This document shows positions 1-54,986 of a DNA stretch of 64,000 nucleotides, piece by piece. Location of the stretch: contig NBIV01000060.1 in the NCBI GenBank assembly GCA_003194525.1, forward strand, positions 1-64,000. The letters are read 5' to 3'. Every line of letters starts with the position of its first letter. Within the stretch, counting starts at the first letter, position 1. Under the pieces are notes generated by a model. That model saw only the letters and a program-made list of their open reading frames with translations. It was not told where the DNA came from and searched no databases. Origin of the DNA: Gracilariopsis chorda (Eukaryota > Rhodophyta > Florideophyceae > Gracilariales > Gracilariaceae). The position numbers and the translations under genes were made by a program.

Positions 1-2720
1 TTCGTCCTCATGGACAAACCATCCCCGGGTGATCCGGTAAACGAGGCATCGCACAACGACCAGCTTGCTGGGAAGAAGAAACGCCGTCATCGACGGAAAC
101 ACCACCGAAAATATTCGGACTCCGATTCTTCGACATCGTCGGACTCATCCCGAAACCATTCGGTTAGCTCGAGCTCCTCGGACTGGACGAGAAGCGAGGC
201 TACTCCTCCCGCTCGAAGCGGTCATCGGCCACTGAAGGTGTGGTCCGAACCCGCCAGAAGGGGAGAAGACACCCCGGTCTCCGGGAATTGAAACCGACAA
301 ACCCGGATTACCGGAAGCTTTATCATACCGGTACTACCGGCTTGAAGATTTGTCACTTGGACGTACGCCCCGTGGTACGGGAAATGTGCGAGAATGCATT
401 AAGCGAATGCAGCTCTCGCTCCGCAACCAGTATTTTACTGGAGAGGACCAGTCCTAGTACTGGATTTCCTATCCCGCTTTGTTAGCGGAGGCCGATATCC
501 TCGGTATGAATGAGGGACAAGCCTATTTGGCTTTACCTTATTTCTTACGGGGAGTGGCGGAGGACCAATACGCCTCTGTCAGAGGATCTTCTCGCGCCTC
601 CGAGGGAGGAGTTACTTGCTGGCGGAGGCTGTGCAGTATCTTCTGCGCTCCTACGCCACCAACACCGCTATTCAGCAGGCTATCCTCGCTTTGCGAGATA
701 CACGCCAGCGTGCTGGAGAGACCGAGACCGATTACTCGGTGCGCCTTAACAAGGCTTTCCACAGATGTGGTAACGTATACCCCGCTGGGGAGCGCAGTAC
801 CATGTTCATTGATGGTCTTGACCCGGCAATCCGGAGTTTAGTTACCCGTTATCGGCAGGACAAGCGAAGGATCACCTACCTCGAGCTGGTCCAACACGCT
901 CGAGCGGAAGGGGATGCACTTCGTGCAAGAACTCCGAACAATCGGTCTAAATCAGCCAAGGCGTTGTTGCTGGAAAGCGAAGCTTCCTCTCTCCCGCTCA
1001 CCGCGGATGGGAACCTGGACAGGGATTTGATACCGTGCATTTAGCGCAGGGGGATGGTGTGTCGATACCCACCAGTGAGTTACCGTCAACGACGGAGATG
1101 ACCCATGATACGGGAACGAAGATCCCGTTCTATACGGTGGTAACAGTCGGGTTCAACCCCAACGACTCCCGTTTTCAAACGGTCAATCCGTTATCAACGG
1201 CCTGGATGGACTGACACCCGCCCTGCGGTTCGCTTCTCCGATACTCGGAATAATAACCGCGTGTCGCGGTGCTGGGCTCTCATTTGCCACCTGTGCTATG
1301 CCCATGGCCATACCTCTCCTCAGTGTATTTGTTCACTGAAGGATATGGCCAAGGTGGTGGCAAATTATGAGGCCCTCACTCCAGAGTAGAAACGTTCCGT
1401 CCCGACGGCTTCCTAACTCCGTGCTAAAACGGACTTTTCCACGCCCTACCACAGACCCCGCGTGCCCGGCAGCTTCATACACCCCGATTCGGGAGATCAC
1501 GCAACATCCGTTGCAACCCCGCTTATGCGGATAGAAACCCCGTCAACGGATGAAGCACTCGTTGTCGAAGAAACCAACCCACCGCCGAAGGCGGAAAACT
1601 AACTGAGGGAGTCTCCCTTTGGGAGAAGCGTCCTCAAGAACGAGGCTGTTGGCGCCCGAGGCGTCCTCGCCTCGCTCATCCCCGGATTCCCGGTAGAGTC
1701 TTGGTCTTGGCCAAGCGCAATTATACGGTCTATGCCGACCTTGGCCTTGACCCCCAGTTTATGGTGAGGTTTCTCACCGTCCTGGATACAGGTGCAGGCC
1801 CCAACTTTGTTGTGGAATCATTGTTACCCCCGCTTGTGCGGTGGCGTATCCGCTCTGACGCGGTCCCCGACATTTCGGATGCGAACAACAATCCTTTACA
1901 TACGGTGGGCACAGTGGACCTCGTCGTGAGACTTGGTACCTCTGTGGTGAAGTTGGACTTCATCGTTTGCCGTTCATTGGCAGCACCAGTGAAACTGGGA
2001 TGTGATTACTGCGACAGATTTATCGACGCAATCAGGCCCCGCCTCAGGCGTGTAGAACTTGACGACGGATGGTCGGTTCCGATTATTCGCCGCCCGCTAA
2101 AGCGGTCCTCTCGGAAACAAGTTCCGGTCCCTGCTGCGCAGGAACCACCGCCCGCGTCCCGCGAGTCCACCAAGCTCCGCGTCGCTGCCTCGGTTTCTAT
2201 ACCGGCTGAGTCCCAAGTCTGGGTGCAGGTGAATTCCCGTCAACACGGTCTTCGGGTTTATACAACCCCTCGCCTCGTTGTACGAGAAATCCCAACTGGC
2301 GCTGGCTAATGGAATTGTCTCCATTTCCCCGGATGTTCCTTTCCGGATATTGGTTGCCAACCTTGGCAAACACCCCCAGTATCTGGTCAAACACCAAGTA
2401 ATTGGGAGTGTAACCCCCCATCCTATGGGAATGCTGCCAACAAAGATGACAGCCGCCGATGTACTCGGAGTTACCACCTCTTCTGAGGAGTTCGCCCCGC
2501 CGTCCGAAGACGTCAAGTCTAAGGAGGGGAGGAAACCGCTACTTCAGCGTCGAACATACCGAGTAACTCGGAATTGCAAACCACACCTGTTCCACAGGAC
2601 AATGCTCCATCGAGCAACGACCGGATTGATCCAGAAAAAGCACTTGAAGCGCTGGACTTCAGCCACGTGCCAGAGTCGCACCGCTACAAACTCCGTACTA
2701 TGTAACGGGAATTCACCACA

Positions 2721-5611
2721 ATGTGGGATGGCTCGCTTGGCGAGATTAATGCAATGGAACACAGGATCGATTTAATCCCCGGTGCGCGACCGGTTGCACA
2801 ACCCCCTTACAGGGCAGGTCCGAAAGCTCGGGAAGAGGAGCAGTCCCAGGTGGACAAGATGCTCCGCGCAGGTGTGATTGAGCCCGCTCAATCACCCTGG
2901 GCATCCCCAGTTGTACTGGCTTTAAAGGCCGACGGAACCTGGAGGTTCTGTGTCGACTACCGCCGGCTCAATGCCGTGACTGTTAGGGACACCTACCCCA
3001 TCCCTCGTATGGACGAGTGCATTGAATCCCTTGGAGACGCCACCGTATTCACGGCCCTTGATGCCAATTGGGGATATTGGCAAGTACCTGTCAGACAGGA
3101 GGATCGCGACAAAACCGCATTCAACTGCCATGCAGGAACGTACCGCTTCAAGCAGATGCCATTTGGGTTAACCAACGCCCCCGCCACCTTTCAGCGTGCA
3201 GTAGATATTCTACTCAACCGCTTTAAGTGGCGGAGTTGTTTGGTCTACCTTGATGATATTATCATCTTCTCCAACTCGTTGGACGACCATCTCACTCACG
3301 TCCGAGACGTGCTGACCGTACTCCGCGATGCGGGAATTACCCTCAAGTTGAGTAAATGCGAGTTTTTCACAGATACTGTGAAGTATCTGGGTCACATTAT
3401 CCGTCCTGGACGGTTAGCGATCGAGAAAGCTCGAGTCAAATCCCTCGTTGAGGCGAAAGAACCCCGTACTCAAACGGAACTGTGCTCCTTTCTGGGGCTG
3501 GTCAACGTCTATCGACGGTTTATCCCGAACTTTTCGGATACTGCGGCGCCCCTGACCGCGTTGTTGCGAAAGGGGAACCACCCAAAACTGGGAACATTTA
3601 TGCCCGAGCAATCGGAAGCTTTTAACTCCTTGAAGGAGGCTGTCACATCAGCACCAATCCTACATCTCCCAAAACTTGGGTTGCCATACTCCGTAGATAC
3701 GGACTCGAGCGACTACCAAGTCGGGTGTGCTCTTTTTCAAACCACCCCCGAGGGGGAACGACATCCAATTGGTTATTGGTCGCGCTCGCTCAATGTTCAT
3801 GAGCGGAACTACTCCGTATCGGAGAAAGAGTGCCTCGCCGTCGTATGGGCGATGACCACTCTGCGCCCCTACCTTATGGGAATTCACTTCACCGTGTACA
3901 CGGATCATTCCTCATTGAGGTGGTTGATGAATATCTCCGACCCGTCGGGACGCCTCATGCGCTGGAGACTCCGCCTCGCGGAATATGAATTTCAAGTCAT
4001 TTATAAAAAGGGTGCGCAGAACACTCAGGCCGACGCTTTATCGCGGTTACCCACAAGTGGGGAAGCACTCCCAACGGAGGATGATGAAGTCCCATGCTTC
4101 ATGGCTATAGACCCGGATGATCCGGAATATGCCGTCGAGGCTAGGCCAGAAACCTGGGACGAGGATGCTGATTTTGACGAACTACTCGCATCGCGAGATA
4201 AATCTGAGAACCCGTTACCGGGAAACTTTGTACCGGTATCACCGGAAGAAATGATCCGAGAACAATTCGGCGACCCATTCTGTACGAGAATTCGTGCCCG
4301 TATCAACGGTGGTGAAGATCTCCCTTTCGGGGTAAACGACAAAGGCTACCTCGTAAGAAAGGTCGAAGCCCGCCCACAGATAGTGGTACCACATTCCCTG
4401 CAATCGCGGGTGTTACATCTATCACACTACGCCCCCATTGGAGGTCACCCAGGTGGGAGGACACTCTACCTAACCCTGCGAAGGGATTTCTATTGGCCCG
4501 CCATGGCGGTGGATTGCTACGCAACTGTGCGGTTTTGTAGCGAATGCGCGAAGAGTCGCGTCAAACTCCGCAAAAATGCGAAGAAGATGAAACTATTTCC
4601 CGCAAGGGCGCCACTCGAGTTTATCACAATTGATCTTCTCGGACCACTACTCACCACAAAACGTGGAAACAAGTTTCTACTTGTCATCACCGACCGCTTT
4701 TCCAAGCTGGTACGGACTGTCCCTCTTCGGAGGATAACCGCTCTCACGGTGGCCCAGGCTCTGGTGACGCACTGGATTTTTGTCTACGGTCCCCTGTGGA
4801 GGTGCTCTCCGACAACGGGAAGCAGTTCGTGAGAAAGTTCTTCCAGGATGTTTGTCGCATCCTGGATGTCAAGAACTGGTTCACGACTACTTACCACCCC
4901 CAGTGTAATGGGAAAGTTGAACGGTTTAACCGGACGTTACTCGCGGCGTTACGTTCCTACGTCGCTGACCATCCAACGAATTGGGATCTCTACGCTGATG
5001 CGGTAACCTACGCGTACAATACGCAGGTACACCGGACTACCGGAGTTTCGCCATTCGAGTTGGTTCTATCTAGAACACCCCCGCCTGTAGCGCTGGAACC
5101 CCAAGCTACCTTGGACAATTTCCCATCTGTGGGTATCTACCGGCAGCAATGGAAGCAATGGCTTTCCAAGCTGGTCCCCGCTGCGCGGAAGTCTATGGCA
5201 CGGGCCCAAGCCGCTTACAAGCGGGATTTTGACGCTCGCTTGCGAGGAAAGACCCCCCCGATTCGGGCAAATAACTACGTCTTCATCAGGAAGGAGTACT
5301 ACAACCCGGAACGGGAGAAGCGTCACAAACTTTCGCCTGTGGCGGATGGACCCTTCAAGGTCATCTCTGTTAACACCGACACTGTCGTGGTAGAGATGGG
5401 GGACACGCACGAACGGATTTCCCGTGATCTTGTTGTCCTTGCCCCTCCTCCCTCGTCAGAGGTAGTCCTGGATCCAGGCAACCCCGTTTCTACGGACTCT
5501 GGAACACCGGAACCATCCGGGAGTACTAGACCTACGGTACTACCAAACCCCAGCCGGGGACTCTCAGACCTACCGACTCTGTCGGACTCACCGGCTCAGC
5601 CGGGTAATTAG
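2721..5611 (+). mobile_element. pol region of the hairpin-rich Ty3/gypsy element: RT, RNase H, integrase
   Basis: Reverse transcriptase motifs are plain: the FCVDYRRLNAV block, the QMPFGLTNAPATFQ block and the YLDDIIIFS active-site box with its two adjacent aspartates. RNase H follows (DTDSSDYQVGCALFQ, then TDHSSLRWL and ADALSRLP at its end). The integrase shows the H-x-H...C-x2-C finger (HYAPIGGHPGG... FCSECAKSR), the first core aspartate in ITIDLLGPL and the NGKVERFNRTL region around the last catalytic residue. The C-terminal part has the GPFKVISV fold typical of gypsy integrases. It is a fossil copy; the family is known to make Gag and Pol as polyproteins. Hairpins of 5-9 bp lie inside the coding sequence, including one centred on the YLDD box codons (3252-3266). 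Confidence 0.92.
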
Positions 5612-5895
5612 GGCCCCTCAGCGCCCGCCTCTACCACGTCTGCCCCACTGGCGCGCATCTATACCCGCCAGGCGGGGAATGTTATCCCTTATCCCGCCGC
5701 TCCGTCTAAGGAGGGGGAGGAGAACACTCGTTTTCGAGGAACGATATCGCCGTCGCAACGGGAAACACAGCGTAACATACGGAACACTGACCGTGGAGCA
5801 CTGAGTATGTCACGCGACACTAATCCCTCGTTCCCGGGCAGTGCTGTGCAACAGGAACCAGACGCGCAGGCCCGCAAAAGCGGCAAATACACCGT

Positions 5896-7236
5896 TTGTC
5901 ACGGGAAAACGAGAAGCCTCACTCCAATACCGCAGCAGTGGAAAGGCAATCGCCCAATCTATCCCCGGAGGCATCGCCACAAACGCGGAAAACATACCGT
6001 GCTACACGGGAAGTTGAAGCGCAACTACCGCACACCCCTGTCAGGGAAGGATCCCCGACAAGGGAGTATGGTGACGATTGCCCCCAATCCCATGAGCAGG
6101 GCGATGCCTCGAAGCCGCCGTTGGCGGAAGTCCCCGCGGAAGCGGTTCAATCAGGTCGATCAGACCCGCGCCTTGCGGAGAAGGGGCGCCCAGATACGCC
6201 GGCCTCACATGGAAATACCCACACCCCTCTTGGGGAAAAAGGCAGCCAAGCCGCAGTCGAAGCTTTAAGCCCTGGCTCGCAAGCACCGGAAACGCCTCCC
6301 GTCGTTGACGGAATCGAAGCCCCCGCTACGGGGAATAATTTGCGCCAACCCCCGCAACGCTGCGGCAAAGAACCGAGGAACTCGGGAAAAACGCGAGCCA
6401 TCGCACGCTCGAAACCAGTCGTACCGGACGCTGCTCCTCCTCATGGAGATGGTGCAACGCGCTTAGCGGCAATTCCCCTGAAAAGGGTGTCATCGGCACC
6501 TGCCCGGCACCCCCCAGAGGGGAATTTTGACCAAAATACCGGTGTACCGGAGTTAGCCCCAGGCAACCCGTCAGTAGCCGGGGACACCACGGCATGGCCG
6601 GAACGTATGGTGCAAAGCACTCGTGCGCCTGGCAGGGAGGCAGTTTGCCACCCAATCACCGTGTCGCACGGGACCCCCCAGGGGATTGTGGAAATGCGGA
6701 TCCCGCAGGAGCGGTCATCTTCCCGCAAACTCGCGGTTCGTGAGCTCAACCGCGAAGGTGGAGCCCAAGTCCCCCGCCGACTGGCGGTTCGCCCGCAATA
6801 CCGCGAAAGCGGAAATGAACCTGCCCCAATGGGGAATGACTTGCCGGTGAAAACCGTGGCATCACACACCCTCTTGAGGGATATCTTCCCGCATGAGCAG
6901 CGGCCGCTATCACAGCGCACGGCAACGCCGGAGTTATCGCCGAACACCCTGCTAAGGGACATTATACCGCACAGCGGGCAGCCCCCGCAAGGGAGTACAA
7001 CCACCACCCGGCACGGCCGGCAGGTCTACGAACGAGAGTTCGTAGTAGACCGACTTGTCGGACACACCTGGGACCAGGATGGTATTCTACAATACCGCGT
7101 CCGCTGGTACGGGTATGACCCCAGTGGGGATACGTGGGAGTCAATCGAACACCTCCCACGGTCGCAGGTCGTGCGATACCACCGTCAAACGGGAACTGCA
7201 GCTCCAGCCACGCTGGTAAATGCCCAAGTTTGGTAA
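5896..7236 (+). mobile_element. Downstream frame of the Ty3 element: long disordered linker ending in a chromodomain
   Basis: The 446-residue frame is open from 5896. About 370 residues are low-complexity, rich in P, R, G, S and T, and resemble no known domain. The last 75 or so carry a chromodomain: YEREFVVDRLVGHTWDQDG, then LQYRVRWYGYDPSGDTWES and IEHLPRSQVV. The aromatic pair in the RVRWYGY stretch and the DTWE motif are hallmarks of chromoviral chromodomains, which help steer integration into heterochromatin. In most chromoviruses the chromodomain follows the integrase closely. Here the linker is long, and much of its DNA is made of back-to-back mini-hairpins, so its peptide sequence may be a by-product of that structure (inference). 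Confidence 0.8.
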
Positions 7237-7480
7237 CGTTGCCGCGCGAACGGAGGGCGATAGGAAAGGATAACAAGGCAAGGTACGTCGAAGACGGGGA
7301 ACTCAAACGAGAATCACCGTTCAAAACGGGAAAGTTTATTCAAGGGAGCAGCTAGCTCCCCACAACACTATACTACAATAGCCGGCTATGCCAGGAAAGA
7401 AGAACCGGAGACGGCGTACGCGCTTTTATCACCCATTTTCGTCTGGGAACCCTCCGCGTCCGCGGTCGTTTTCCCGTCTT

Positions 7481-7491
7481 AGGGGGGGATA
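7481..7491 (+). other. Polypurine tract before the 3' LTR
   Basis: The purine run AGGGGGGGATA directly precedes the LTR start TGTAGTGCAA. In this family such a tract primes plus-strand DNA synthesis. Its position fixes the left LTR boundary at 7492. Confidence 0.8.
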
Positions 7492-8821
7492 TGTAGTGCA
7501 ACGCCCTCAGGGAGGGATTCTTGGTACTTGAACGCTTTCCCGATATTATCGGTTGTGTAGTGTGTATATGAACTACGCCCCACCATGGTGGATATGAACA
7601 CGTGGGACACGGTTTTGGGTCAATTGGCGGTTGGCCACAGTAGTGGATGTTGCCACGAAATGTGGAGTATTTTAGTTAATATTATTTATTATTTTCACAC
7701 CCATTTCTGGGAAGCTAGTACTTAGTGCGACGGCGCACTGCCGTCGCACCAGTAAATCTTCCCCAACAAGGGACCCCAACCTGGGGAATTGGCTCTAGTT
7801 GTTGCCGCTTGCGCGCGTACTCTACTCCTCCTTGGAGGGAAACGCCGTAAACCACGGGACATCTAACCCCCTTGCACATCTAAAGGGACCCATCACTGGG
7901 AGTATAATTGTTCCAATCATATTGGTGTTTCGCCCTGTATAGGGATATTGTTACCGGCATCGCCGTATCTGTTCGTCGCTCTCGCGACTCACATCGTCCT
8001 CTCTTCCTCCTCTTCGCCCTTCCTTTTTCCCCTTTATAGGGTAGCACCACCCGCTATCCGCGGCCCTCGTGTGCGCATCCGCTCACACACCCCCACTTAC
8101 GTGGAAACATTCCTCTACTGAAGATCACACCCCGCTCACGCGGATACCGATTCTTCGCCTTCACCTCCCTGCGCGAGTCGCGACAGGTGTCCCTGGTCTT
8201 ACAAACCGGCTTCGCCGTGACACCTCTGGGAGGGCTCTACCCAACTGGGTTCACCTCGTGAGAGGAAGATCCCGAACGTCTTTCGGTGTTTTTCCCCTTT
8301 GGGGCATTGCACCACAGAGGTAAAGCCGCGTTACTAACGGTAGACCTATCCACCCTGCGTCACTAGGAGTATCACCGCCTTGGGCACTTGTCACTTAATT
8401 CACCACCGCCGTGTTCTCGCCCCTGTATAGGGTTCCTTTGTACCTTTTTCCGTGGTCCCGCTGGCCCACACCCCCGTCGCCCCCAATCGGGCATCCCCCG
8501 TATTTCCCTTACCCCACTCTCGTGGTTTCTACCCCTTTGTGTGGTTGCTCGTCACCGCTAACGCGTGTCTCTCGTGCCGGTATCCCGTGACGTCTTCCCC
8601 CATTTACGTGGACTCGTACTCCTTGGAAGGGCTGTTTTCCCATTCGTGGTGATCCTAATCCTACCGTATCAACTCTCCCCGCTTGGCGTGAGGGCGAGCC
8701 TCGGCTTTACAACCCGACTTCGTCGTGCTCATCCGGAGAGGCTCCGTTCGCTGTGTTATCCTCCAGAGGGGAAGATCCGAACGTCTTCGTGTGTTGTCCC
8801 GCTTGCGGGTATTGCACTACA
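7492..8821 (+). repeat. 3' LTR (about 1.33 kb) of the Ty3 element
   Basis: It is bounded by a perfect 10 bp inverted repeat, TGTAGTGCAA at 7492-7501 and TTGCACTACA at 8812-8821, with TG...CA ends. It has no credible gene; short frames inside it are chance. It contains an internal duplication: about 8175-8316 is a diverged copy of about 8670-8821, both ending in a near-identical TTGCAcyACA (8307-8316 and 8812-8821). Hairpins are as dense here as in the coding part. Confidence 0.88.
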
Positions 8822-9517
8822 TGAAGGCCTCCACCATTATATGGGAAACGAAGCACCGTACTTACGATTTCATTACGAACCAGGCCCTTTCCAACATCTA
8901 ATGATGGTGCGTCGATATGGCAAGCATTTTACGCAAAGAACGATGAACAGAGAAGATGGATTGACCACATTTTCGGTTCATCGAAAACTTGCTGGTCAAA
9001 TCCGAGAGGTTCAGGGACGTTGGATGTGCCAGGGTAGAGTTATGGGTTTGGGAGAGAAGTTAAAGAGACTTCATCCTGATCTTCAAGGTCCATGTCTACT
9101 ACTCCAACACTTTGATTATTGGGTTGGGAATTAGTGAGGGAATTTTATTCACGTTCTTGCCTTTATAGCTCGGCGATGAGAGAAGACTAAGGCCCAAGCC
9201 CAATATACTCATAAGCGACATGCAAGCGAGCTCCTCGAAGGTTCTTCTTATAGGAAACCACCAACACATGCTCGGTGGCATAGGCTACATACCCCTTGCA
9301 CCAGGAACCATATTTACCTTGGATCTTGTAGAATTATATGGAGGTGGTAGCGTGCAGAAGGTGTTGGGATGTCACATGGACAGGTTGACAGCGCATCAGG
9401 GTATACAAAACTCTTCAATAAGCTCGTTCATGATAAGAGGACAGAACTTCGAATAAACCCCGACGTTTAGGTGGACCAGCCATCGAAGGTGTACAGCCGT
9501 GGGCCTGCTAAAAGCTA
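8822..9517 (+). other. Unidentified stretch with coding-like frames to the right of the Ty3 LTR
   Basis: After the LTR the base composition changes at once and the hairpin pattern stops. A plus-strand frame runs to 9134 (roughly 100 residues beyond the LTR, ending LQHFDYWVGN) and a second lies at 9220-9456 (VLLIGNHQHMLGGIGYIPLA). They could be pieces of one decayed host gene. The NHQ-like motif recalls some lipid acyltransferases, but this is too little to name a function. No splice signals were convincing. Confidence 0.3.
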
Positions 9518-12080
9518 CTAACCAATTTGCTTCCGTACAGCACGTTTTTTAAAGAACGTCGCACGTGAAATTATCTCGAAGTCCGTTCGGAAGAACTGAC
9601 GGGTTAGACGGAATTCTGGTTTGTCCGATAAAAGTGTTTTGACTAATGTTCGGATAGTGTCGTCCTCCGATTCAACACTGCCATTTTCTATTTTACCTTT
9701 TTGTGGGACGGGGCTCCAATCTTGTTTGGAAACGAGCACATATTCTTCTAATAATACTGCTGTCAAACTCTGGGTCGGGAGAGAGCTTCAGCTGCGGTCC
9801 ATAAGCGTCGAACCATTTCAAGGTTATCATGCAGGCAGCATCTCTCATGTAATTTAAAGTCATTATAAATGTAGAGGAGAGTCCCATGGCAAACTTCTTC
9901 ATGTGAAGTATCGGCAGGGTACCGAGCGCACGACTAAAAAGAAACTACACTTAAATGTGCTCGTTAAATTCCGCAGGTATGGGGTTAAACAATATCTTGG
10001 GCAATTGTACAGGTCTTCCAGACATATGGCACGTGTGGCGAGAGTCACTTTCTTTCTCCAGTTCCTTTGAGAGTCTGTCATTCAGAATATTACCACGACA
10101 GCAAAGCATTTTCATTTCACGAAGATTGAAGTGGGATTGCACGTGAAGCTTGTGTACAAAACTCTTTGATTCGTTAATGCATTGTTCTTTATGAGCCATG
10201 TTCAAGAGAGGAGCTTTCTCAGCAGAGAAGAAAGAGTTGAATGACTTGGCCACAGAAGGCACAACAGTTAGATGTGTGCGGCGATTGTTCTCATCACCCA
10301 AGATGTACGTTGAAAATGTCGCATCGCCTTCGCAAGTCCTAGCGCTGATGACATGACAAAATTGTTCCCCCAACCCATCAGGATCGAATGTGAGACGAAA
10401 TCACTTCCTATTGGGAGAGGATGACTTCCTTCAGTGAGGTAGAATTTTAGCATAACATTCTCGCCGTTGAAGGAAGTCACACAACGCTTCCAAATTGCGA
10501 AAAACAGCTTGGGTGTCTCACACTTAGAACCAAATCCATGATAGAAAGGGTCACAATCGAGTTCACTGATTACGAAAAATATCCCATGAGCGATTGCCAA
10601 TGCGGCAGTATACTTCATTTCACCAACACTTCGCGGGCAGCCAACCTCAATGATCAGATTACGAGCTGTCAAGCCTTCTGGAACATTACATGGCACTTCA
10701 ACCAATGCTTCTAAGCATGATTGCGATTCTATGGGCCAGCGCCTCGCTGAAAACCCAAACGGCGATCACTGTTGTGTTACAGGACACACCTTGGTTGGTA
10801 TTAGGTCCGCCTATGGTTTTAATGGCTTGGGAAGAGCTCCCGTTCTGAGCTTGACGCTCCATCATCCTCTTTTCTGTGAGGAAGGAAGGAGACGGCCACG
10901 CATTGCTACCAGCTAGATGAGTAGGTTCACCACAGTCATAACAGAAAGGAAACTCATCCCCTCTCTTCACGCTGGCCGTTCTCTTGCGAGAAAGTTGGGG
11001 CTTAGAGGTTGACTAGGACGGTTTCACAGCGCATTCACCAATGGGGGAGAATACGCTGCCTTACTTCTTCTGAGACATTGCGTTAAGGGCTGTCTCTACC
11101 TCTTGGCCGACAATGTTTTTCAGACCAGCCTTTTTGACTTGAGAAAACGAGCTGCCAGGAGTGACAGAAAGGTTTTTATGACGATAACGGCGTCGTCTAG
11201 GTTAAAATGACAAAATGGGGACGGCCTGCGGATACTAAAGCCTTTGGAGTGTAGAGCGTTTGTGTCTTCACTTAAGCTTGACAGACTTTTCAATTCATTG
11301 GCAACTTCGGTAATCCTTCTTTTAGTATACGGCAACTTCCCTTTTGTGATAGCATGATCATCTCCACTCAGAAGTCGAAGATGCAGCTTGTTCACCATTT
11401 TTTCAGTTCTTCGATAAACTGGTCGAAAGCAGATTTGTCGAAGACAAAATTGTGAGGGCCTGAAAATTTGTCTTTCTCCATGCGGGCGTCCACAAGAACG
11501 ATAAGTTGGAGCTTAGCATCGGTCAACGTCTCTTCACTAAGCAAAGAGTTGTTGAGAAGAGTAACATCTTCTACTTCTTTCATTTGAGACAATGACGAAA
11601 ACCCACCATGCATAAGATGCTATGCTGCACGTCTACGAACTCGGGAGACAAATATAGCCAATGGCTCATCTTTACGACCGCGGTAGGTCGTCACACTAAT
11701 AAAGTATGCTATAAAACGCGAAATTACAGCAAACGGCGGGTCAATGGCGATAAGCTCAAAACTTTGACGTACGACTTTTACCTGGTCATCCTGATTCAGA
11801 TCAATTTATCTTTTTGCCTGTGATTCGTCAAGAACAGATTGCTGAAAGCTCGGAAGCACACGGTCGTAGATTATAAGCCCCAACGTTGCAAAGCGTGTTT
11901 TGTAGAGGGGTTCACTGCCTTTTCTAGCAGCAAAGAAAACCTATCAGCCCAATGAGATACGTCCCTACGCAATTCTTGCAGATCGTTCGCTGGATCAAAT
12001 TGAAGTGGATCCGAAAGGTTTTGCAAAGTGTTCTGTAGTCTTGGGCCTGTACCTGAGGTATACGAAGCAAGGAGGTTGCG
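9518..12080 (-). mobile_element. Decayed LTR retrotransposon remnant (gag, zinc knuckle, integrase)
   Basis: On the minus strand, from high to low coordinates: a gag-like stretch (about 12070-11120, with FDPANDLQELRRDVSHW); a zinc-knuckle-like CYDCGEPTH (about 10950); an unclear part that may hold the protease (about 10705-10270); then integrase pieces. These are a zinc-finger-like H...H...CHTCHMSGRP region with the FNEHI segment (about 10230-9950), and a core piece with WFDAYGPQLKLSPDPEF (about 9810). No reverse transcriptase is seen between gag and integrase, which would suit a protease-integrase-RT order as in Ty1/copia, but decay makes the family uncertain. It is badly broken (ten or more breaks) and old. 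The promoter-like repeat at 13.3-13.9 kb may be its 5' LTR. Confidence 0.6.
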
Positions 12081-24729: not shown

Positions 24730-25149
24730 TGCAACAGAGTGATGAAGAACTGTGCAACAGAGGATTTGAAACTGTGCAAAATTATGATAAGGAGCCTTAC
24801 AACGGCCACTCTAGCCTAACGATCCAAAATGTATCGTGGCGAAGATGGGCAGTGTTTAATCGCCGCGCAAGTCTAACCATCCCAAGTGTATCGTGGCGGA
24901 GACCGGCAGTGCTCGATTGCTAAATGTATTGGCAGAGATGGGGGGGTGCTCCATACATGTGTACGGCTGTTGTATCGCGAATATGGCAGAGGACTGCGCT
25001 AAAGCGATACATGAGTCAGCATAGAGAAGACAAAAGAGAGAGAGACGGAAGGAACAGTATATATAGCCATGGGAAGGAGCAATCATTGTGCTACCGTGGA
25101 GAGGCATGGACCGTTCGGAGAACACAAGTAAACAATATAGTCTGCTAGA
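24730..25149 (+). repeat. 5' LTR of the outer Ty3 element
   Basis: It starts TGCAACAGAG and ends CTGCTAGA, where the 3' copy ends CTGCTACA. A TATA-like CAGTATATATAGCC stands near 25057-25070 and may be its promoter. It is preceded by target duplication CTAAG and followed within 2 nt by the primer-binding site. Confidence 0.92.
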
Positions 25150-25150
25150 G

Positions 25151-25165
25151 TGGTAGCATCGCTAC
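25151..25165 (+). other. Primer-binding site of the outer element
   Basis: TGGTAGCATCGCTAC follows the 5' LTR directly. TGGTA-initial sites in plant and fungal LTR elements are usually complementary to the 3' end of initiator tRNA-Met. The inner element has nearly the same site on the minus strand (about 31209-31222), so both use the same primer. Confidence 0.7.
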
Positions 25166-26545
25166 TTTGCAAATATTCCCGTTTCTGGCCCTCTGCAAAC
25201 CTCGTTCCCTATTAACGTTGAAGGTTCTCATCATAGCACGGATGGGTTGTCCGTGTTTGCGTCGATCAATTTGAAGCCCAACAAACCCGAAGTGTTCAAT
25301 GGTAAACGCGATTACCTGGTGGTGAACACTTGGTTGTACAAGGTAGAACAGTATTTCACCTTGATTCAGTTGGCAAATCAGAATGCGCCTCTCAGTGTCA
25401 GTAACAAAGTCACGTATGCTACTACTCTTTTAACGGAAACTGCTGCTATCTGGTGGTATACCACGTTGAAGTCAAACAATGCACCACAGACGTGGAGCTC
25501 GTTTATGCACGCTATAAGAAAGTAATTCGTCCCAGAAGATCATGAACGTAGAGCTCGAGACTCTCGTCGAGAGTGCAAACAGAAGATGAGTGTGTCAAGC
25601 TATCTTTCCGAGTTTCGTAATATCATTCTCACTATCCCGGATATGAGCTCTACCGAAAATTAGGATACGTTTGTAAGCGGATTGAAACCAAAAATACAAT
25701 TCGAAGTCCCAAAATCAAATTGTGTGGATTTCGAAGAGTCGAGCAAGATTGCCATGCGCGTCGAAGCTGCCTTTAAGGGTGTTTCGATCGATGGTTCCGG
25801 AACTAGTAGTAAAGATTGAGCTGTTCTCGATCGTATGGAAATTGGAAATTCTGAGAGTAGAGGCAAAGATGCTCGAGCCAAGCAGCGACTGATGGACATC
25901 CGTTATAATGCATGCTTTATGTGCCATAAGGCCAGATGCCGTCCTTGGAAGCATCGAAAGGGTAACGCCTCGGCACTTTTGAAGATTTCAAATGCGGAGA
26001 CAGATCTCTCTGCAGGTAATGATGATGAGATAGACTCAGATAGTTCGGAAAACTAAAGGGTCCTTCCAGAATCAATTTGAACCAGTTGGAATGACGTGAT
26101 TTTTTATTGCACGTGTCTATGCAAAACCAGTTAGTCAATCACTCTGGCCATGTTCCGTGCGTTCCGTTACTCTTCTTCAATGGATCTTTAAATGGGAGAA
26201 AAGCGCGAGTGCTGAAAGACGATGGTTGCAATACGAATGTGGTCTCGCGAAGTTTTGTGCAGCGGAATCGTGCGTTTCTCCAATTGCAACCGGCACAAGT
26301 TCAATTTCACCACTCTAGTTTGGATTCTACAGAAAATGGGAGAGAAATGGTGGTCAGTGGCCTTGTCAGCATCAATGGATATGATTATTGCAGTAATTTC
26401 ATTGTTGCCGACTACCGGTACGATGTATTGTTAGGAATGCCGTGGCATACGGATGCAAAGGCAGTGGCGGATTACAACAGGAGATGTGTTTCGGTTTGCA
26501 ATAATGTCTTGAAGGCTAAAGACGTCAGCAAAAATGGAGCATTGT

Positions 26546-26752
26546 TGCAATTGGGATGTTTTCTCTTTACACAACTGTTCTTCTGACGGATAGATGAGCG
26601 TTCTCTTCTGACACAAAGACTAGAACTTCCTCCTTGAGTATACTACCTATGATCACGACCTTTCGCATGCTCTGCAACTCTTCGGACTCTCATTCCAATT
26701 ACAAGCACCAGACAGTGTCCTTCAATTTCGTTTCTCAATTGCGTCCGTTGCA
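26546..26752 (-). repeat. 3' LTR of the inner element
   Basis: The inner element runs on the minus strand, so this is its downstream LTR. It begins TGCAATTGGG and ends CCGTTGCA in plus-strand reading. Confidence 0.9.
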
Positions 26753-29700
26753 CTATTGTCATCCCTCTCCTTGTTGACGTCCACGTCAATGTTTTCAATG
26801 TAGATGGGGTAGCAAATTCTTTTGAACGGTGTATCTATGAAAAGCATCTGTTAACGTCCCATCCTTATCGACAAAGTCTTTTGTACGTTGCCATTGCGCG
26901 TCATGCGTAGTAGAATTTTCCATGAGGGTCAACCATTGATATCCTCGGCCGCGACGTCGATGGGCAAGAATACGATCCACCTTGAACAACGGTATAGAAG
27001 CAGTAGCATCCACAGGTGCAGCAGAAGATCTACAACTCTGTGCCAGATCTTCAGGCTGCTCGACGTGGGGCTTTGTGTGCGATACATGAACAACTGGATA
27101 AATTCGAAAGTGACGAGGCAATTTCAGTCGAACCGCATTTCTTCCAACAAGTTCCTCAATAAGAAACGGGCCATACCTCCTCGCTGAAAGCTTTGAAGAC
27201 TGTTGTGCATTACTGTACGAATCTTTGAAAAGCTTATGTGATCTCCAGACACGGTCACCTATACCGTAGGAAGGCTTCTTGAAATGAACACTGGCTTCTG
27301 CTATTTGCTTCGCCTTAGCAAGTTTGTGAGCGTATTGAGCGTCTTCCATTACCGCCTTTAGACGCTGACGGAAATCCGATAATGATTCCAGCTGTGTCGG
27401 AGTTCCAAGAAGCATCTCCACTGGACCTTTTGGTTGCCATCCTAAGTCTACCTCAAAAGGTGAAAGACCAAGATCCTCAGACACTGCTGAATTATAGGCA
27501 AACTCAGCACAAGGCAGAAAAAGATCCCAATCATCCTGCTCGTAATTACAAAAACACCTGATGTAGTTCTCGACCATCCTATTCATCACCTCCGAAGCAC
27601 CATCAGTTTGCGGATGTTTGGTCGACAACATACGTAATGTCACTCCACAAAGTCGCATAAGCTCCGTCCAAAACTGGGAGGTGAACTTGGGGTCACGTTC
27701 GGATATAATATCATCAGGAAGGCCATGATGGGGGAGGAGGTGTGTGAAAAACAAATTTGCGACATCGTGGACTTGGTCAGTAGTCTTACAAGCAATGAAT
27801 CGAACTCTTCGAGACAAACGGTCAACCCAGGTCGAAATAGCATCAAATCCTCGAGGGGTTTTGGGTAGTTTCACAATAAAGTCCGTTGTCAACAAACCCC
27901 ACCTTCGTGTGGGAATAGGAAGCGCCGCCGGGTCATTCAACACTTGCCCATGAAAATCTTTCTGTGGTTGACAGACGGAGCACCCATCGCAATACTGACG
28001 AACATGCTTGGTCTTGTGCTTGCAATGAAATTCTCCGAGCCGAGCCAAGGTCTTCGAAAACGCAAAATGGCCAGCTAACTTTGAATCGTGAGCTAGCTCA
28101 AGGACCGCTTTTCTTGCATGAGATGGTACGCAGAGTTTCCCTTTTTAAAACAGTTTCGAATCTCGTGTGGAGAAAGAAGGCAACAATTCCTCAACTTTTC
28201 GTAGCTGCTTTTGATCTGTGGGCCACTTGCCATTCAAGGCAGCCATAATGGGCCCAAACTGATGGTCTTGGTCATAGCGGCAAACAACCTGCCCAAAATC
28301 CAGCAGAGACGGCGTGCTGCACTCCACTTGCTGGAGAGACAAACGATCCGGGATACGGGAAAGGGAGTCCCCAAGTACATGAATCTTACCATGCACCAGA
28401 TTCATCTCCCTAATATTAAACATGGCCAGCGTATCCAACCAACGCGCTTTACGCCTATTCACGGACTTCTTAGTCAGGAAATTCTTCACAACCTGATTAT
28501 CCGTCAAAACATCAAACGTAGACCCCTCAAGATAGCACCGAAAACGTTGGAGCGAAGGAACAAGAGCCAAAAGCTCTCTCTCGTTAGCAGTATAGTTCTG
28601 CTCAGTTACCGTGAGCTTCTTAGAAGTAAAAGCCACCGCTCGATCTCGACCGTCAGAATCAAATTGCGTCAACGTGGCTCCAATGGCCACCTGAGAGGCA
28701 TCAATGTGAACTCGAAATGGTTGAGACCAGTCAGGGGGAACAAGAACCGGAGCGGTCATCAACGCCGAATTCAAGTCCATAAACGCAGCTTGCGCAGACT
28801 CATCCCACTGACGAATAACAGCGCGCTTCTGCAACAGGACATACAAAGGCGCCGCACGAGCTGAAAACCCTCGTATAAATCGGCGGAAAAACTGGACCAA
28901 CCCAAGGAAACTACGTAGCTCTGTCAAGTTGATAGGTCGAGGCCAGTTCTGAATGACTTCGAATTTATGCGGGTGTACGCGTATGCCATCTCGTCCGACA
29001 ACCATACCCAAAAACTCAGCCTCCTCAAGCATAAACGAGCACTTCTTTGGAGAAGCATAAAGTTTATGCTCTTGCAATCGTTCCAAAACCATGCGAATAT
29101 GAGCAAGATGGTCCGCCTTGGTGTCACTGTATATAAGGATATCGTCGATATATACAACCAGGAACCGATCAATATAGTCGTGAAGAACACGGTTCATCAG
29201 CGACTGAAAGGTTGCCGGCGCATTGCACAACCCCATGGGCATCACCAAGTACTCAAATTGTCCATATTTGTAGTTGAAATCCGTCTTCTCAACATCGGAA
29301 GGACGCAGGCGTATCTGATGGAAACCCGTCTTGAGGTCTAGCTTTGAGAAAAAACGGGCCTTCCCCAAACGATCGAACATTTCATCACAGCGCGGCAAAG
29401 GGGCATTATTCCGCTTGGTGATCCGATTTAACCCACGATAGTCAACAACACCGCGCAACGCTCGTCCAGGCTCCTTAAAAAAAACAAAGGAGAGCCATAA
29501 GGGGACCTGCTTGGTCGTATCTTGCCGGAGCGCAAGAGCTTGTCAACATATTCGCGGGCAGCAACCAACTCGGCTGGCGACAACTGATACAGTGGACGAT
29601 GTGGCGGTTGGCTGTCTGGTATAGTATCAATAGCATGATCCACATCACGCTTGGGTGGTAGTCCATCGGGCAGCTCCTCCTGAAAGACATCCTCAAATTC

Positions 29701-31223
29701 ATGCAACAAAGCGCAGAGATCCGGATCATCTTCATCTAACAGTTTCGCCTTCGGACCCTCAGGCCTAGATGCCGGAGAAAATTGCGATGAAGACACCTGG
29801 ACAACCCGAAAGACTTCGACGCCCTGTTTTCCTCGGCGGAGCAGACGACGAAATTTCTTCACTCCAAGGTTTGTGACCTGCAAGGCCGAGCGACGCGACA
29901 CTGGACTAGCTTTAAGAAGATGACCACCAACAGCAAGGGTTCGAGCGCGGTAATCGGCCTGTGGGTTTTCCTCAGTGTGCCATGGCATGCCGAGTAAAAC
30001 ATCGTAGCGACAGTCCGCCACAACCCAGTTTCCTGTGTAAGAGTAAGACCAGAGTGAAACGGTCCCATTTCCGACCATTTCAGTAGATATTTCTTGAGCA
30101 CCTCGCTTAGAATGGCTCAAATCAATCAACACAGGCGCGAAAGTAAGCAGATGTTCATTAGCGCGAGCAAACTCCCGCGATATCACATTTGACGAGCACC
30201 CATCATCCTTCAGCACTTGAGCAGGAATACTATTAAACGTTCCATCCAGGACCAATAATGGAACACACGGAACTTCGGCAGATCCCGAATCACAAAGGTT
30301 TTGCAACGACACGTCACCATAAACACGTCCTTCTAACGTGCACTTCTTGATTCTAGAAGGACTTTTTAGTTTTCCGAACTGTCAGAATCTACACTATCCT
30401 GATGCTCTTCCGACCCTAACACCGCCTCAATATTGGCTACAGAAACATTTCCAGCCCCACCCTTTTTGCGATGCATCCACGGACGGCACCCTGGCTTATG
30501 ACCATAGAAACAAGCGTTGTTACAAATGTCCTCTAGGCGTTGCTTTGAACGCGGAGGCTTATGCACTTGTGTATTTCCAATTTCCATAGGCGCAGGTGCG
30601 GACATATTGTCAGCAGCAGATTTACGTTCGTTCAGATCGGAAGGTAAAGAAACACCAGAAAATGCAGCTTCGACGCGCATAGCAATTTTTTTGGCTTCTT
30701 CGAATTCTTGACAATTGGCCTTTCGTACCTCGAACTGAATCTTTGTCTGCAATCCACTCACAAATTTGTCCCATTTCTCGCTAGAACTCATGTCCGGAAT
30801 GGTGAGAACTATGTTTCGAAACCGAGAAAGATACTCGGATACAAAGCTCGTTTGCTTACATGAACGCAATGCATCCCGAGCACGTCTTTCATGGTCTTCT
30901 GGAACAAAATCTTTGCGGATGGCACTCACAAAAGTATCCCATGTCGTTGGGCTTGAACACGCTTTCAAAAGCGTATACCACCAAATTGCTGCAGTATCCG
31001 TGAGTAGGGTTGTAGCATAGGAAATTCGATTCTCATCCAACAAGATGACATTCCCGTTCGCAAGCTGGATAAGATTGAAATACTGTTCAACTTTATACAA
31101 CCACGTGTTGACAACAAGGAAGTCTCGTGCTCCACTAAATGCCTGCGGCTTGTTCGGCTTCAGATTCATCGATCCAGAAGGATTAGGCGTAGGATTTGTG
31201 TTTTCCATAGCGATTGCTACCAG

Positions 31224-31430
31224 TGCAACTGGGATGTTTTCTCTTTACACAACTGTTCTTCTGACGGATCGATGAGCGTCCTCTTCTGACACAAAGACTA
31301 GAACTTCCTACTTAAGTATAATACCTATGATCACGACCTTTCGCATGCTCTGCAACTCTTCGGACTCTCATTCCAATTACAAGCACCCGACAGTGTCCTT
31401 CAATTTCGTTTCTCAATTGCACCCGTTGAA
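31224..31430 (-). repeat. 5' LTR of the inner element
   Basis: It has the same length as the partner LTR. The minus-strand primer site CTGGTAGCAATCG lies just inside it, at about 31211-31223. ATTGT follows it at 31431-31435. Confidence 0.9.
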
Positions 31431-34400
31431 ATTGTAGGTTTTTAACATTGGCGTCAAGAAATTCCGACGAATGCTGCGAAGTCCTCCAAAAGTTACTGAG
31501 TTTTATCGACTGGTTCCTTCAAACGCTGATTTGAATTTGAGCTCAGTACTTGAAGCTACTGTGAGTTCCAGTACAGCAATGGAGGCCTTCCTTGATGCTG
31601 ATGACCAAGAAGTTCGGTCTTTGTTGAAAGAATTCTCCGACATATTTCAAGAAGAGTTGCCTCCAGGGCTACCACCAATAAGAACGGTGGATCATGAAAT
31701 TTGTACAGAACGAGACGTCCGTCCGCCTCATAGACCACTTTACCAGCTGTCGCCATCTGAGTTGATAGCAGCAAAGGAATATGTCGATAAACTCTTGCGA
31801 AGTGGCAAAATCCGCCCGAGTCGATCACCGTATGATGCCCCTCTCTTTTTTGTTAAGGACCCTGGCTGTTCTTTGCGAGGTGTCGTCGACTATCGTGGTT
31901 TGAATCGGATAACAAATAGAAACAACGCCCCGCTCCCCAGGGCAGATTAAATGTATGACAGGCTGGGGCAAGCCCGTTTCTTTTCCAAGCTAGATCTAAA
32001 ACCTGGCTTTCATCAGATCCGCATGAAGCCAGAGGATATTGACAAGACGGCCTTTAACACCAAGTACGGCCAGTTCGAATAATTGGTTATGCCCATGGGT
32101 TAGTGCAACGCACCGGCAATATTTCAGACAGTAATGAACGGATTTTTGCATGATATCATTGATAAGTTCGTGGCCGTTTATATCGATGATCCGCTTATAT
32201 ACAGCAATTCTCGCGAGTAATATCTGGAGCACATCCGGGCTGTACTCTCTCATCTGCGTGCTAACAAGCTGTACGTGTCACCTAAGAAATGCATCTTTAT
32301 CACACAGGAAACAGAGTTGCTTGGTCTACTTGTAAGTAGCGAAGGATTACGTGTAAACACAGCTAAGGTTGGAGTCGTGCAGAACTGGCCACGCCCGATA
32401 TCTCTCACAGAACTTCGAAGTTTGCTTGGCCTTTTTCAGTTCTTTCGACGTTTTATAAAGAACTTCTCGCTACGCGCGGCACCCTTAACGTGTCGTACGC
32501 AGAACAGAAACGGAATCAAGTCATGGGACTGAGCCTCAGCGTCTGCGTTCAAAGATTTGAAGACTGCTCTCACTACGGCCCCAATCCTTGCTCCCCCGGA
32601 TTGGAAAAAGGTGTTCCGTCTTCATATTGATGCTTCACAACTGGCAATTGGGGCTACGCTGACACAGATGGATACAGACCACCGCGACCGTGTCATTGCA
32701 TAAATGTCACGCAAGATCTCTCCAGCGGAGCAAAAATATACTGCCAATCAACGGGAACTGTTGGCATTGGTCTTTTCACTTCAGAGATTTCGTTAGTACT
32801 TGGAGGGTGCACCTTTGATGTCATGACAGAAAACCAAGTGGTGGAAAACTTCATGCACAAGAATAGCATCAATAGGCGGGAAGCCCGATGACTAGATGTC
32901 CTTGCTTCTTTCAACATCCGAGATGTCTCGCTAACGCCCGGCCGCATTCATGTTTTGGGTGATTCTTTGTCTCGTATTCGGCATGAATTAGAAGTGCTCA
33001 ACACGTCATGTTCAGCCCCAATGTTCACGGACCTGGAACAGGACTTACGAAGCTACGAATCTGATCAGATATTTGGCCCTATTGTGAGTGCCTTGCGAGG
33101 AGCCTGGCCGTCTTGTACGAAGCAGCATCGACGTCTCAAATAACTTCTTGAGTCATTTTTGATCAAAGACAATTTACTGTTGTACAAAGGAAAGGTGCGT
33201 GTCCCCATGAAGGCAAGACGTTCCGTTCTGGAAATGGCACATGACTGTCGATTTTCAGGGCATTTCGCATTTCCGAAAAGCTTGTCGCGTCTTGAGAAGT
33301 ACCATTGGAAGAACAAAACAAAGGACACGAAAAAGTACTGCCAGGGCTGCTCAGTCTGTCAAGAAAGCAAGCACACACAGGCACAGTCATTGAATATGCC
33401 AACCCCACTTCCAATCCCAACACGACTATGGGGGCCTGTTGCTACCGATTGTATAGTGAAGCTCCCAACCACTAATGAAGGGTATGACAGCGTCACCACA
33501 TGGGTTGACCGCTTGTCCAGAATGGTGCATTTTGTTCCCTCTCGTGAGACTGATGACGCTCCACAGGTTGCATTATCCTTTGTGAAGCAAATTTTACCAC
33601 AGCACGGCCTTCCTGACGCAATTATATCCGACCACGATCCAAGATTCGTTTCTCGGTTTTGGAAGTCTTTGATGGATATTTGTGGTGTTAAGTTACGAAT
33701 GTCGTCCTCCAGACATCCACAAACGGACGGCGCTTCTGAGTTTATAAACAGAATGGTGGAGAACTATATACGAAGCTTCTGCTCTTTCCGACAGAAAGAC
33801 TGGGACATGCTGCTGCCAATGGCTGAATTTCCGTACAACTCCGCAGTCAGCGAAGATCTTGGCATGTTACCGTTTGAGGTTGATCTTGGATGGAAGCCAA
33901 AGGGCCCTTTGGATCTACTTATCAAAACGGAAAGTGGAGTCGAATCTACTGAAGAATTTTGTAAGAGACTGCAGGCCGTTCTTGAAGATGCCCAGTTTTG
34001 TCATCACTTGCCGAAAGCGAGACAGGCAGCGGAGTCTAGCGTTCATTGGAGGGAACCTTTTTACGAGGTCGGCAATCAGGTTTATGTATCTAGAAAACTC
34101 TTCAAGGATGCTTACAGTTGCGCAAGGCCGTCAGATAAGTTGTCTGCCAGACGGTTTGGTCCTTTTCGTATTACAGATCTTATTGGGAAGAACGCAATAA
34201 GGCTTGACTTTCCGTCCAATATCAGAGTGCATCCTGTCGTTCACGTTTCTCACATTAAGACGTATGTACCGCAACCGCAACCTATTGCACAACCCGTCCG
34301 TTCGACTCCTGTCCCAGTTGAGGTCATGAATGGGAAGGATTTGTTTTTGGTAGACAAAATACTGAAGCACAGAAAGAGAGTAAAAGGGTATCAGTGGCTA

Positions 34401-34563
34401 ACACTGATGAAGAAAATTCCCACCCACGATGCAGCTTGGCAGCCTACCAAAGACTTTGCGGAGAAAGACGGTACTATTACCGCATCCTTTCATGAGTACA
34501 TTGTGAAATACAACTTACTTCCCCACTTGCATTGAGTTTTTTACCGTCCGGAGAATGCAATGG

Positions 34564-34983
34564 TGCAACAGAGTGATGAAGAACTGTGCAACAGAGGATT
34601 TGAAACTGTGCAACATTTTGATAAGGAGCCTTACAACGGCCACTCTAGCCTAACGATCCAAAATGTATCGTGGCGAAGATGGGCAGTGTTTAATCGCCGT
34701 GCAAGTCTAACCATCCCAAGTGTATCGTGGCGGAGACCGGCAGTGCTCGATCGCTAAATGTATTGGCAGAGATGGGGGGGTGCTCCATACATGTGTACGG
34801 CTGTTGTATCGAGAATATGGCAGAGGACTGCGCTAAAGCGATACATGAGTCAGCATAGAGAAGACAAAAGAGAGAGAGGCGGAAGGAACAGTATATATAG
34901 CCATCGGAAGGAACAATCATTGTGCTAGCGTGGAGAGGCATGGACCGTTCGGAGAACACAAGTAAACAATATATTCTGCTACA
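34564..34983 (+). repeat. 3' LTR of the outer Ty3 element
   Basis: It is the second 420 bp copy, followed by the target duplication CTAAG at 34984-34988. The pre-insertion junction would have joined ...AACCG with CTAAG and CCTCGCAAACTC. Confidence 0.92.
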
Positions 34984-51221: not shown

Positions 51222-51318
51222 TGTCATCACGTAGTGTACACGTAGCGACATACAATAAGGTCCCTGCCCGCAGGCGAGACCGCCAGAGGGAAGGGAGTAT
51301 CGATTCTCTCTTTTCTCA
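51222..51318 (+). repeat. 5' LTR of the copia element
   Basis: It begins TGTCATCACGTAGTG and ends TTTTCTCA, preceded by GTCAG. It contains ACAATAAGG, a possible polyadenylation-type signal. Confidence 0.88.
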
Positions 51319-51331
51319 GGTTATGGGCACC
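51319..51331 (+). other. Primer-binding site resembling half-tRNA-Met priming
   Basis: GGTTATGGGCACC follows the 5' LTR. As I recall, Drosophila copia uses a very similar GGTTATGGGCCC site that pairs with an internal fragment of initiator tRNA-Met rather than its 3' end. Confidence 0.55.
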
Positions 51332-54889: not shown

Positions 54890-54986
54890 TGTCATCACGT
54901 AGTGTACACGTAGCGACACACAATAAAGTCCCTGCCCGCCCGCGAGACCGCCAAAGGAAAGGGAGTATTGATTCTCTCTTGTCTCA
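54890..54986 (+). repeat. 3' LTR of the copia element
   Basis: It has the same 97 bp length as the 5' copy, with about 92% identity by eye. It is followed by GTCAG at 54987-54991. A second TGTCATCA stands 50 bp upstream (about 54838). Confidence 0.88.

Follow-up and report, generated by a model that had tools for sequence, protein, structure and literature searches.

The dispersed packaging signals of single-stranded RNA viruses such as MS2 are many similar stem-loops spread genome-wide, with common recognition features and a spacing that matters (PMC6281560). Here we describe a comparable array in a long terminal repeat (LTR) retrotransposon of the red alga Gracilariopsis chorda, found in a window that comprises positions 1 to 64,000 of the forward strand of contig NBIV01000060.1 (assembly GCA_003194525.1; 64,000 nucleotides, the whole stretch analysed). 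The element is a Ty3/Gypsy chromovirus, and a lattice of short perfect hairpins of one design runs through its gag, pol, linker, 3′ untranslated DNA and LTR (positions 1–8316). The recognition motif of MS2 is found in the apical loop together with a bulge (PMC6281560), whereas in the lattice the loop is variable and the CC..GG base of the stem is constant. Thus, the element has many stem-loops with a common feature along its length, but no motif shared in a loop or bulge. It also differs from the viral signals in its density of one hairpin per 38 nucleotides (nt), in its host, an LTR retrotransposon, and in that its binding to a coat protein would be our own proposal.

Genome-scale ordered RNA structure likewise shows an excess of folding over shuffled controls across whole genomes, and such structure is expected to tolerate G-U pairs on one strand. 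Folding energy also lies below that of shuffled controls along our element, but the lattice is a fixed mini-hairpin design of short, Watson–Crick stems only, in which RNA-type, G-U-tolerant pairing on one strand was not found. In the same superfamily, the genomic RNA of yeast Ty3, profiled by selective 2′-hydroxyl acylation analyzed by primer extension and mutational profiling (SHAPE-MaP), is structured and Gag-bound: ∼20% of it forms a well-folded core, and its 5′ end is structured too; the accessible part of that report mentions no regular hairpin array (PMC11381356). Mitochondrial coding sequences of Nematomorpha also hold many protein-compatible perfect inverted repeats, but those are long (up to 284 bp) and mitochondrial, whereas the lattice units have a fixed length of 11–13 nt and lie in a retroelement (PMC6649704). 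Ty3/Gypsy chromoviruses have the same gag, reverse transcriptase (RT)–RNase H–integrase, chromodomain and LTRs; the lattice is the difference. Judged by the titles and abstract openings of top-ranked matches, a scope that leaves most subscription papers outside, no description of such an array in an LTR element was found.

Perfect stems of at least 5 bp with loops of 2–7 nt number 149 in positions 1–8821, compared with 46.4 ± 7.5 in 30 local dinucleotide shuffles. This 3.2-fold excess bears out the three- to four-fold figure given in an earlier, model-made reading of the same DNA (the original prediction), whose six example hairpins (84–96, 427–441, 1256–1270, 2874–2895, 3297–3311 and 7026–7045) are all present; the first of them, CCGTC atc GACGG, has five pairs and a 3-nt loop. 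Two other LTR elements of the window, at 24730–34983 and 51222–54986, have 56 stems against 53.9 (1.04-fold) and 17 against 13.0 (1.31-fold), and the three remaining stretches lie at 0.93-, 1.09- and 1.35-fold. A stricter count takes non-overlapping hairpins of at least 4 bp with loops of 3–5 nt whose first or second base from the outside is C (C-type hairpins). There are 217 of these in 1–8316 against 45.9 ± 5.0 in shuffles, with a mean spacing of 38.3 nt between centers. As the original prediction had claimed, the lattice passes through every part of the element: stems of at least 4 bp are enriched 3.2-fold in gag (11–1560), 3.2-fold in the protease region, 3.3-fold in RT–integrase, 2.9-fold in the linker, 2.8-fold in the 3′ part and 4.2-fold in the LTR. 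Noncoding parts taken by themselves carry it too, with 22 CC..GG hairpins against 1.1 expected in the LTR (tested from 7493) and 11 against 1.6 in the 5′ untranslated region of another copy (L002). Folding energy agrees: the mean z in the element is −1.40 on the plus and −1.28 on the minus strand, compared with −0.22 and −0.33 in the rest of the window, and 34% of 56 plus-strand windows fall below −2 in the element compared with 4% of 92 elsewhere.

The lattice stops near the end of the element's LTR. The original prediction had extended the element to 8821, and this part of it needs correcting: the lattice reaches 8316, where the element's own LTR ends, and 8317–8821 on the plus strand forms the tail end of a different, diverged LTR that directly abuts it (72% identity over 118 nt to the end of the element's LTR). 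That tail is only weakly enriched (3 CC..GG hairpins against 0.9, a count reached by 7 of 100 shuffles). Stems of at least 4 bp are at expectation in 8822–9700 (10 against 9.6), the bins from 9 to 12 kb have no CC..GG hairpin start, and all sequence outside the element has 32 against 27.8 expected. The abutting tail may mean that the element landed within, or next to, an older relative. Elsewhere in the window, two isolated long hairpins, at 55215–55248 (15-bp stem) and 55618–55640 (9-bp stem), do not belong to the lattice; the stretch around them has 14 stems of at least 5 bp per 1 kb, only 3 of them of CC..GG type.

The hairpins share a design. A typical unit is 11–13 nt long, with four or five Watson–Crick pairs, a CC..GG base and a loop of 3–4 nt. 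Among 313 stems of at least 4 bp with loops of 3–5 nt, the outer pair is C-G in 215, where ∼31 are expected; G-C, A-T and T-A account for 41, 29 and 28 (20–31 expected each). The style of CC ends, 3-nt loop and GG ends noted in the original prediction is therefore real. In the family to which the window element belongs (family A), CC..GG hairpins number 166 against 14.0 (11.8-fold), 153 of them 11–13 nt long, compared with 20 against 13.2 (1.5-fold) for the mirror form GG..CC. Two related families, B and C, have 49 against 4.2 and 30 against 4.4. The design is strand-symmetric, since CC..GG reads the same on both strands. Spaced CC-N7..9-GG motifs lacking interior pairing are near expectation (1.43-fold in A, 0.97-fold in B, 1.06-fold in C), whereas those with both interior pairs complementary are enriched 13-, 15- and 8-fold. 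Thus, it is the pairing itself that counts, which favors a hairpin in a single strand over a site in duplex DNA.

Size is constrained as well. For stems of at least 5 bp, the excess is confined to innermost loops of 1–5 nt and is absent at 0 and from 6 nt upward; loops of 3, 4 and 5 nt occur 62, 32 and 16 times, and among stems of at least 4 bp loops of 3 and 4 nt are equally common (128 each). Stems are capped in length (C-outer stems of 6 bp: 2 against 1.2 expected), and the bases just outside CC..GG seldom pair: they do so in 15 of 166 hairpins of A, where 40.7 are expected, and in 2 of 49 of B, where 12.1 are. In family C a further pair often lies there (9 of 30; 7.9 expected), so the flanks are kept unpaired only in A and B. 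Loops are variable, A/T-rich in family A, with no fixed base at any position, and show no base pattern of hyperstable tetraloops (GNRA or UUCG). In family A, gaps of 0–3 nt between neighbors are avoided (11 against 27.5), an avoidance that may come in part from the greedy selection of non-overlapping hairpins, and gaps of 6–14 nt are favored (81 against 51.4); families B and C are sparse in such data.

The lattice is present in three related chromovirus families: A, that of the window element, and B and C, with 7 and 23 loci, the latter two drawn from 30 RVT_1 loci out of at least 150. These are well diverged, at 64.5–66.2% mutual nucleotide identity and 40–41% at third codon positions. Against 100 synonymous-codon shuffles, counting all stems, coding sequence holds 181 stems in A where 64.0 are expected (z = 15.0), 103 against 47.8 in B (7.7) and 99 against 42.7 in C (9.1), whereas five control open reading frames (ORFs) of the window give z of −1.1 to 0.2. 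For C-type stems alone, z is 16.5, 11.8 and 11.3, and −1.8 to 2.4 in the controls. The density therefore exceeds dinucleotide-shuffled, codon-shuffled and neighboring-element controls alike, as had been predicted. A fourth relative (L072, 1692–3135, covering LTR and 5′ region, 67% identical to the family) has 12 CC..GG hairpins against 1.9. Three loci with a chromodomain in this genome (L070, L071 and L073) lack the lattice, with 0, 2 and 0 where 1.1–1.5 are expected, as does a Ty3 element of the window with ∼35% RT identity (5 against 6.0). On these few loci the lattice appears to be a property of one clade rather than of the host genome generally. No related locus was found beyond the source genome in the viral and genome contig collections searched. 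The families differ in their anchors: CG..CG exceeds TC..GA in A (70 against 12.2 expected; 20 against 8.7), and the reverse holds in C (9 against 5.4; 26 against 4.0).

Variation among copies supports purifying selection on the hairpins in family A. We compared 29 of the at least 62 other copies; because copies are related, the p-values are approximate. Variants found in a single copy are about as frequent in C-type stems (88 per kb) as outside (93 per kb). Shared variants are scarcer in stems: the ratio of singletons to variants shared by at least two copies is 127:29 in stems compared with 281:146 outside (odds ratio 2.3, p = 0.0002), and 127:6 compared with 281:68 for sharing by at least three (odds ratio 5.1). 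The same holds at synonymous sites, with 45:14 compared with 105:77 (2.4, p = 0.013) and 45:4 compared with 105:42 (4.5, p = 0.003). Of 468 singletons, 17 create a C-type hairpin (3.6%, null 3.2%) and about five times as many, 93, destroy one (19.9%, null 23.2%); shared variants gain 8 and lose 27 of 168 (null 3.1% and 20.1%). Singleton clusters (n = 34) gain in 3 cases, lose in 7 and leave 24 unchanged. New mutations thus destroy far more hairpins than they make, so mutation alone would erode the lattice, and hairpin-breaking variants must be removed from transposing lineages.

Positions are partly conserved between families. Hairpin centers coincide 23 times between A and B, 26 between A and C and 22 between B and C, compared with 6.5, 6.1 and 5.2 after shifting, and none of 60 shuffles of the codons in either partner reaches these counts (maxima 12, 11 and 11). 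In 54 of the 71 coincidences the centers match exactly; within these, 19 pairs changed on both sides yet remain paired and 214 are unchanged. At 3812–3824, the fourth pair is C-G in A, T-A in B and G-C in C. The hairpin CCTGC..GCAGG at 2130–2142 sits on the same codons in all three families (with 4 bp in C), and CCTG gata CAGG at 1781–1792 shares its codons with family C (two of the three families).

We propose that this array, which recurs in three diverged families with a common basic design, a depletion of inherited variants in the stems of A, and partly conserved positions with compensatory pairs, is a selected set of short stem-loops covering essentially all of the element's genomic RNA sequence and serving as dispersed docking sites for its own Gag. 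This is our preferred reading, held tentatively and at somewhat short of an even chance; we infer both the reader protein, Gag, and the folding molecule, RNA or complementary DNA (cDNA). Through its basic patch and CCHC knuckle, Gag would bind the hairpins multivalently. It could thereby cover and compact its own RNA, choose that RNA for packaging and possibly also act as its chaperone while it is reverse-transcribed. In each family Gag and RNA would have co-evolved, and the design would differ between families for that reason. Gag is favored because the sites span the whole RNA, because the design varies somewhat by family, and because of the packaging role of the Ty3 nucleocapsid (NC), whose zinc finger–containing form is required for RNA packaging (PMC4974528). 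In yeast Ty3 each Gag accounts for ∼20 bases of RNA in a shell of 540 subunits (PMC6525542), a figure comparable in magnitude to the lattice spacing of 38 nt. If the algal shell were alike, two RNAs with 170–220 hairpins each would offer roughly 340–440 sites per particle, a figure that is suggestive only. The lattice may thus work like dispersed packaging signals, but with a constant stem base and in an LTR element.

Several observations weigh against this proposal. In family C the variant test is not significant (35:9 in stems compared with 108:37 outside, in the same direction), and of 42 shared variants there, 8 break a hairpin (null 11.9%), so that losses are not depleted, and 4 make one (null 1.2%). 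One control ORF (26795–28048) has 9 C-type hairpins against 4.6, the source of the z of 2.4. Codon shuffles preserve a coincidence of 13–15% per hairpin, compared with 26–31% observed; part of the positional overlap is therefore due to shared protein, which explains about half of it. Pair by pair (ordered comparisons, each counted twice), conservation is barely above that of matched controls: 47.8% compared with 43.9% unchanged, 6.7% compared with 4.3% compensated, and 7.4% compared with 10.6% changed on one side to G-T. Most sites thus turn over, and density is maintained despite this, as expected of many weak, exchangeable sites. A family-specific label in the flanks is weakly supported. Compared directly, the families differ at −1 (chi-square p = 2.4e-5) and at +1 (4.0e-5), but we weakened an initial claim of family-specific flanks once each family's own non-hairpin CC/GG neighbors served as background, which also made the Gag reading slightly less probable and generic shielding slightly more so: A keeps a preference for A/C before and AA after (p = 0.0002–0.008), B only for T at +2 (p = 0.025; others 0.08–0.55), and C has none (p = 0.36–0.8). 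Most of the interior of yeast Ty3 is, moreover, dispensable in cis (PMC4974528).

The strand and the molecule are a further difficulty. Among hairpins with one mismatch, G-U is not enriched in clean copies of A (GT 7 against 6.2 in L046, 5 against 3.0 in L002) or C (4 against 4.4), and in B it rises no more than other mismatches (GT 10 against 3.5, AC 8 against 3.8, others 39 against 15.4, all alike). This missing excess is unlike what is expected for selected RNA helices, and could reflect single-stranded DNA or a need for strict stability. Wobble was tried as a strand test and abandoned: the window copy has an A-C excess (22 against 10.7; GT 8 against 8.9) that resembled antisense G-U, but it is absent from cleaner A copies, and we attribute it to decay of the window copy and draw no conclusion on strand. 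The similar folding z on both strands is expected for palindromes. The data fit sense RNA, antisense RNA or cDNA alike.

Other explanations must account for the same pattern. An artefact of composition or codon usage might be suspected from the GC content of the element (0.557, compared with 0.43–0.50 for the rest), but it is refuted, since the signal disappears in dinucleotide and synonymous shuffles although composition and codons are preserved in them; we give it practically no weight. The original prediction had also offered a mutational cause, in which near-palindromes become perfect through template switching while the element is reverse-transcribed; quasi-palindrome correction at that stage would be a cause of the same kind. 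The presence of the lattice in coding and noncoding parts alike would suit such a process, but we find it very improbable: singleton gains stay near null in A, as described above, and in C (8 of 157, 5.1% compared with 4.5%), where losses dominate too (26 of 157) and 10 singleton clusters divide into 1 gain, 2 losses and 7 without change; singletons are not enriched in stems, and shared variants are depleted there in A. Nor does it predict the capped length, the CC base or the unpaired flanks.

The other cause that had been put forward, selection for a structured RNA genome, fares better in that selection on structure is supported by the synonymous enrichment in three families, the depletion in A stems and the positional overlap above codon shuffles. 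Packaging, a possible purpose of the structure, is our leading mechanism. Generic selection, in which hairpins shield the transcript from RNA interference, nucleases or antisense pairing with no specific reader, would explain the more negative folding z of the element and the selection on A stems, yet it fits less well with the strong bias to CC..GG over GG..CC, the capped stems, the lack of enrichment at loops of 6 nt and more, the flanks kept unpaired in A and B, and the absence of a clear G-U excess; we regard it as unlikely. Still less probable, in our estimate, is a role in single-stranded cDNA rather than RNA, with hairpins acting in NC chaperoning, pausing or minus-strand protection during reverse transcription. 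Watson–Crick pairing with a wobble preference on neither strand in clean copies, and the favoring of 3-nt loops among stems of at least 5 bp, speak for it; the equal use of 3- and 4-nt loops among stems of at least 4 bp speaks against it, and there is no independent sign of a DNA stage.

The element itself is a chromovirus by its content and order of genes. The left end of the window cuts it, and it continues beyond position 1. Its coding regions and LTR lie on the plus strand. The gag region (11–1560, its start set by eye) has broken frames and contains a CCHC zinc knuckle, CX2CX4HX4C, in the nucleocapsid region of Gag (1285–1326); yeast Ty3 Gag also has one such knuckle (PMC4974528). The pol frame open at 2721–4832 encodes RT, RNase H and the integrase H2C2 domain (Pfam PF00078, PF17917, PF17919 and PF17921), in the Ty3 type and gag–pol order. 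The rest of the integrase core (4796–5611) is out of frame with that ORF in the window copy and matches PF13683 weakly, below cut-off. A chromodomain C-terminal to integrase closes a long linker (7039–7164; PF00385, E = 5e-10), and the 3′ LTR (7492–8316) has TG..CA ends, TGTAGTGCAA...TTGCACCACA. No transfer RNA was found in the window, and 1–8821 has no Rfam match at gathering score.

The element is multi-copy. In the 91.3 Mb of genome searched, its LTR has at least 44 matches, among them that of the window itself, a 90% match and a short 71% match, and its RT at least 63, including its own, of which at least 62 others share 96–98% amino-acid identity. The gag and pol frames are broken in the window copy, and other copies have open frames. 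Some copies are arranged in series: in L002 (1356–3827) one LTR is preceded by a 3′ internal end and followed by a 5′ internal end, like a tandem with a shared LTR, and at G000:C257:120758-123646 three LTRs follow one another ∼1,030 nt apart. The Gag of L002 has 39 relatives, with a CCHC knuckle in 27 and PF03732 (Retrotrans_gag) in 12; a Pfam scan of the L002 Gag piece itself gave a single sub-threshold match, RAP1. Named protein relatives include one from Closterium and others from red algae (Agarophyton chilense, Gracilariopsis chorda and Chondrus crispus); the closest named red algal ones, in Agarophyton chilense, have 71%, 65% and 55% identity over 77%, 73% and 68% of the query. One relative is filed under a bacterial metagenome-assembled genome (Sphaerochaetaceae; 68% over 63%) and is possibly a contaminant. 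Among the neighbors in the window, 24730–34983 holds a pair of Ty3-type elements, free of the lattice and with ∼35% RT identity to the family, whose pol ORFs lie on the minus strand and which has a second, plus-strand integrase-like ORF (33159–34535), and a long ORF at 37776–39173 resembles a DDE transposase by eye.

RNA selection and packing in Ty3-type elements are poorly defined, and their cis signals are imprecisely mapped (PMC11381356, PMC4974528). The lattice offers a candidate packaging signal repeated ∼200 times per genome, with a fixed design and natural variants in three families. Gag–RNA recognition, self-selection and the constraint of structure over coding thereby become directly testable. 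The lattice would also be an extreme instance of synonymous choice writing a second code over proteins. More broadly, though we consider this rather unlikely, the clade may carry a periodic structural code atop its proteins, in which ∼170–220 Watson–Crick CC..GG hairpins per genome are read by the element's own Gag, at about one per subunit, and design differences act as a label of self and non-self. If true, this would be a nucleosome-like or packaging-signal-like code, of a kind that, to our knowledge, is known from no retroelement.

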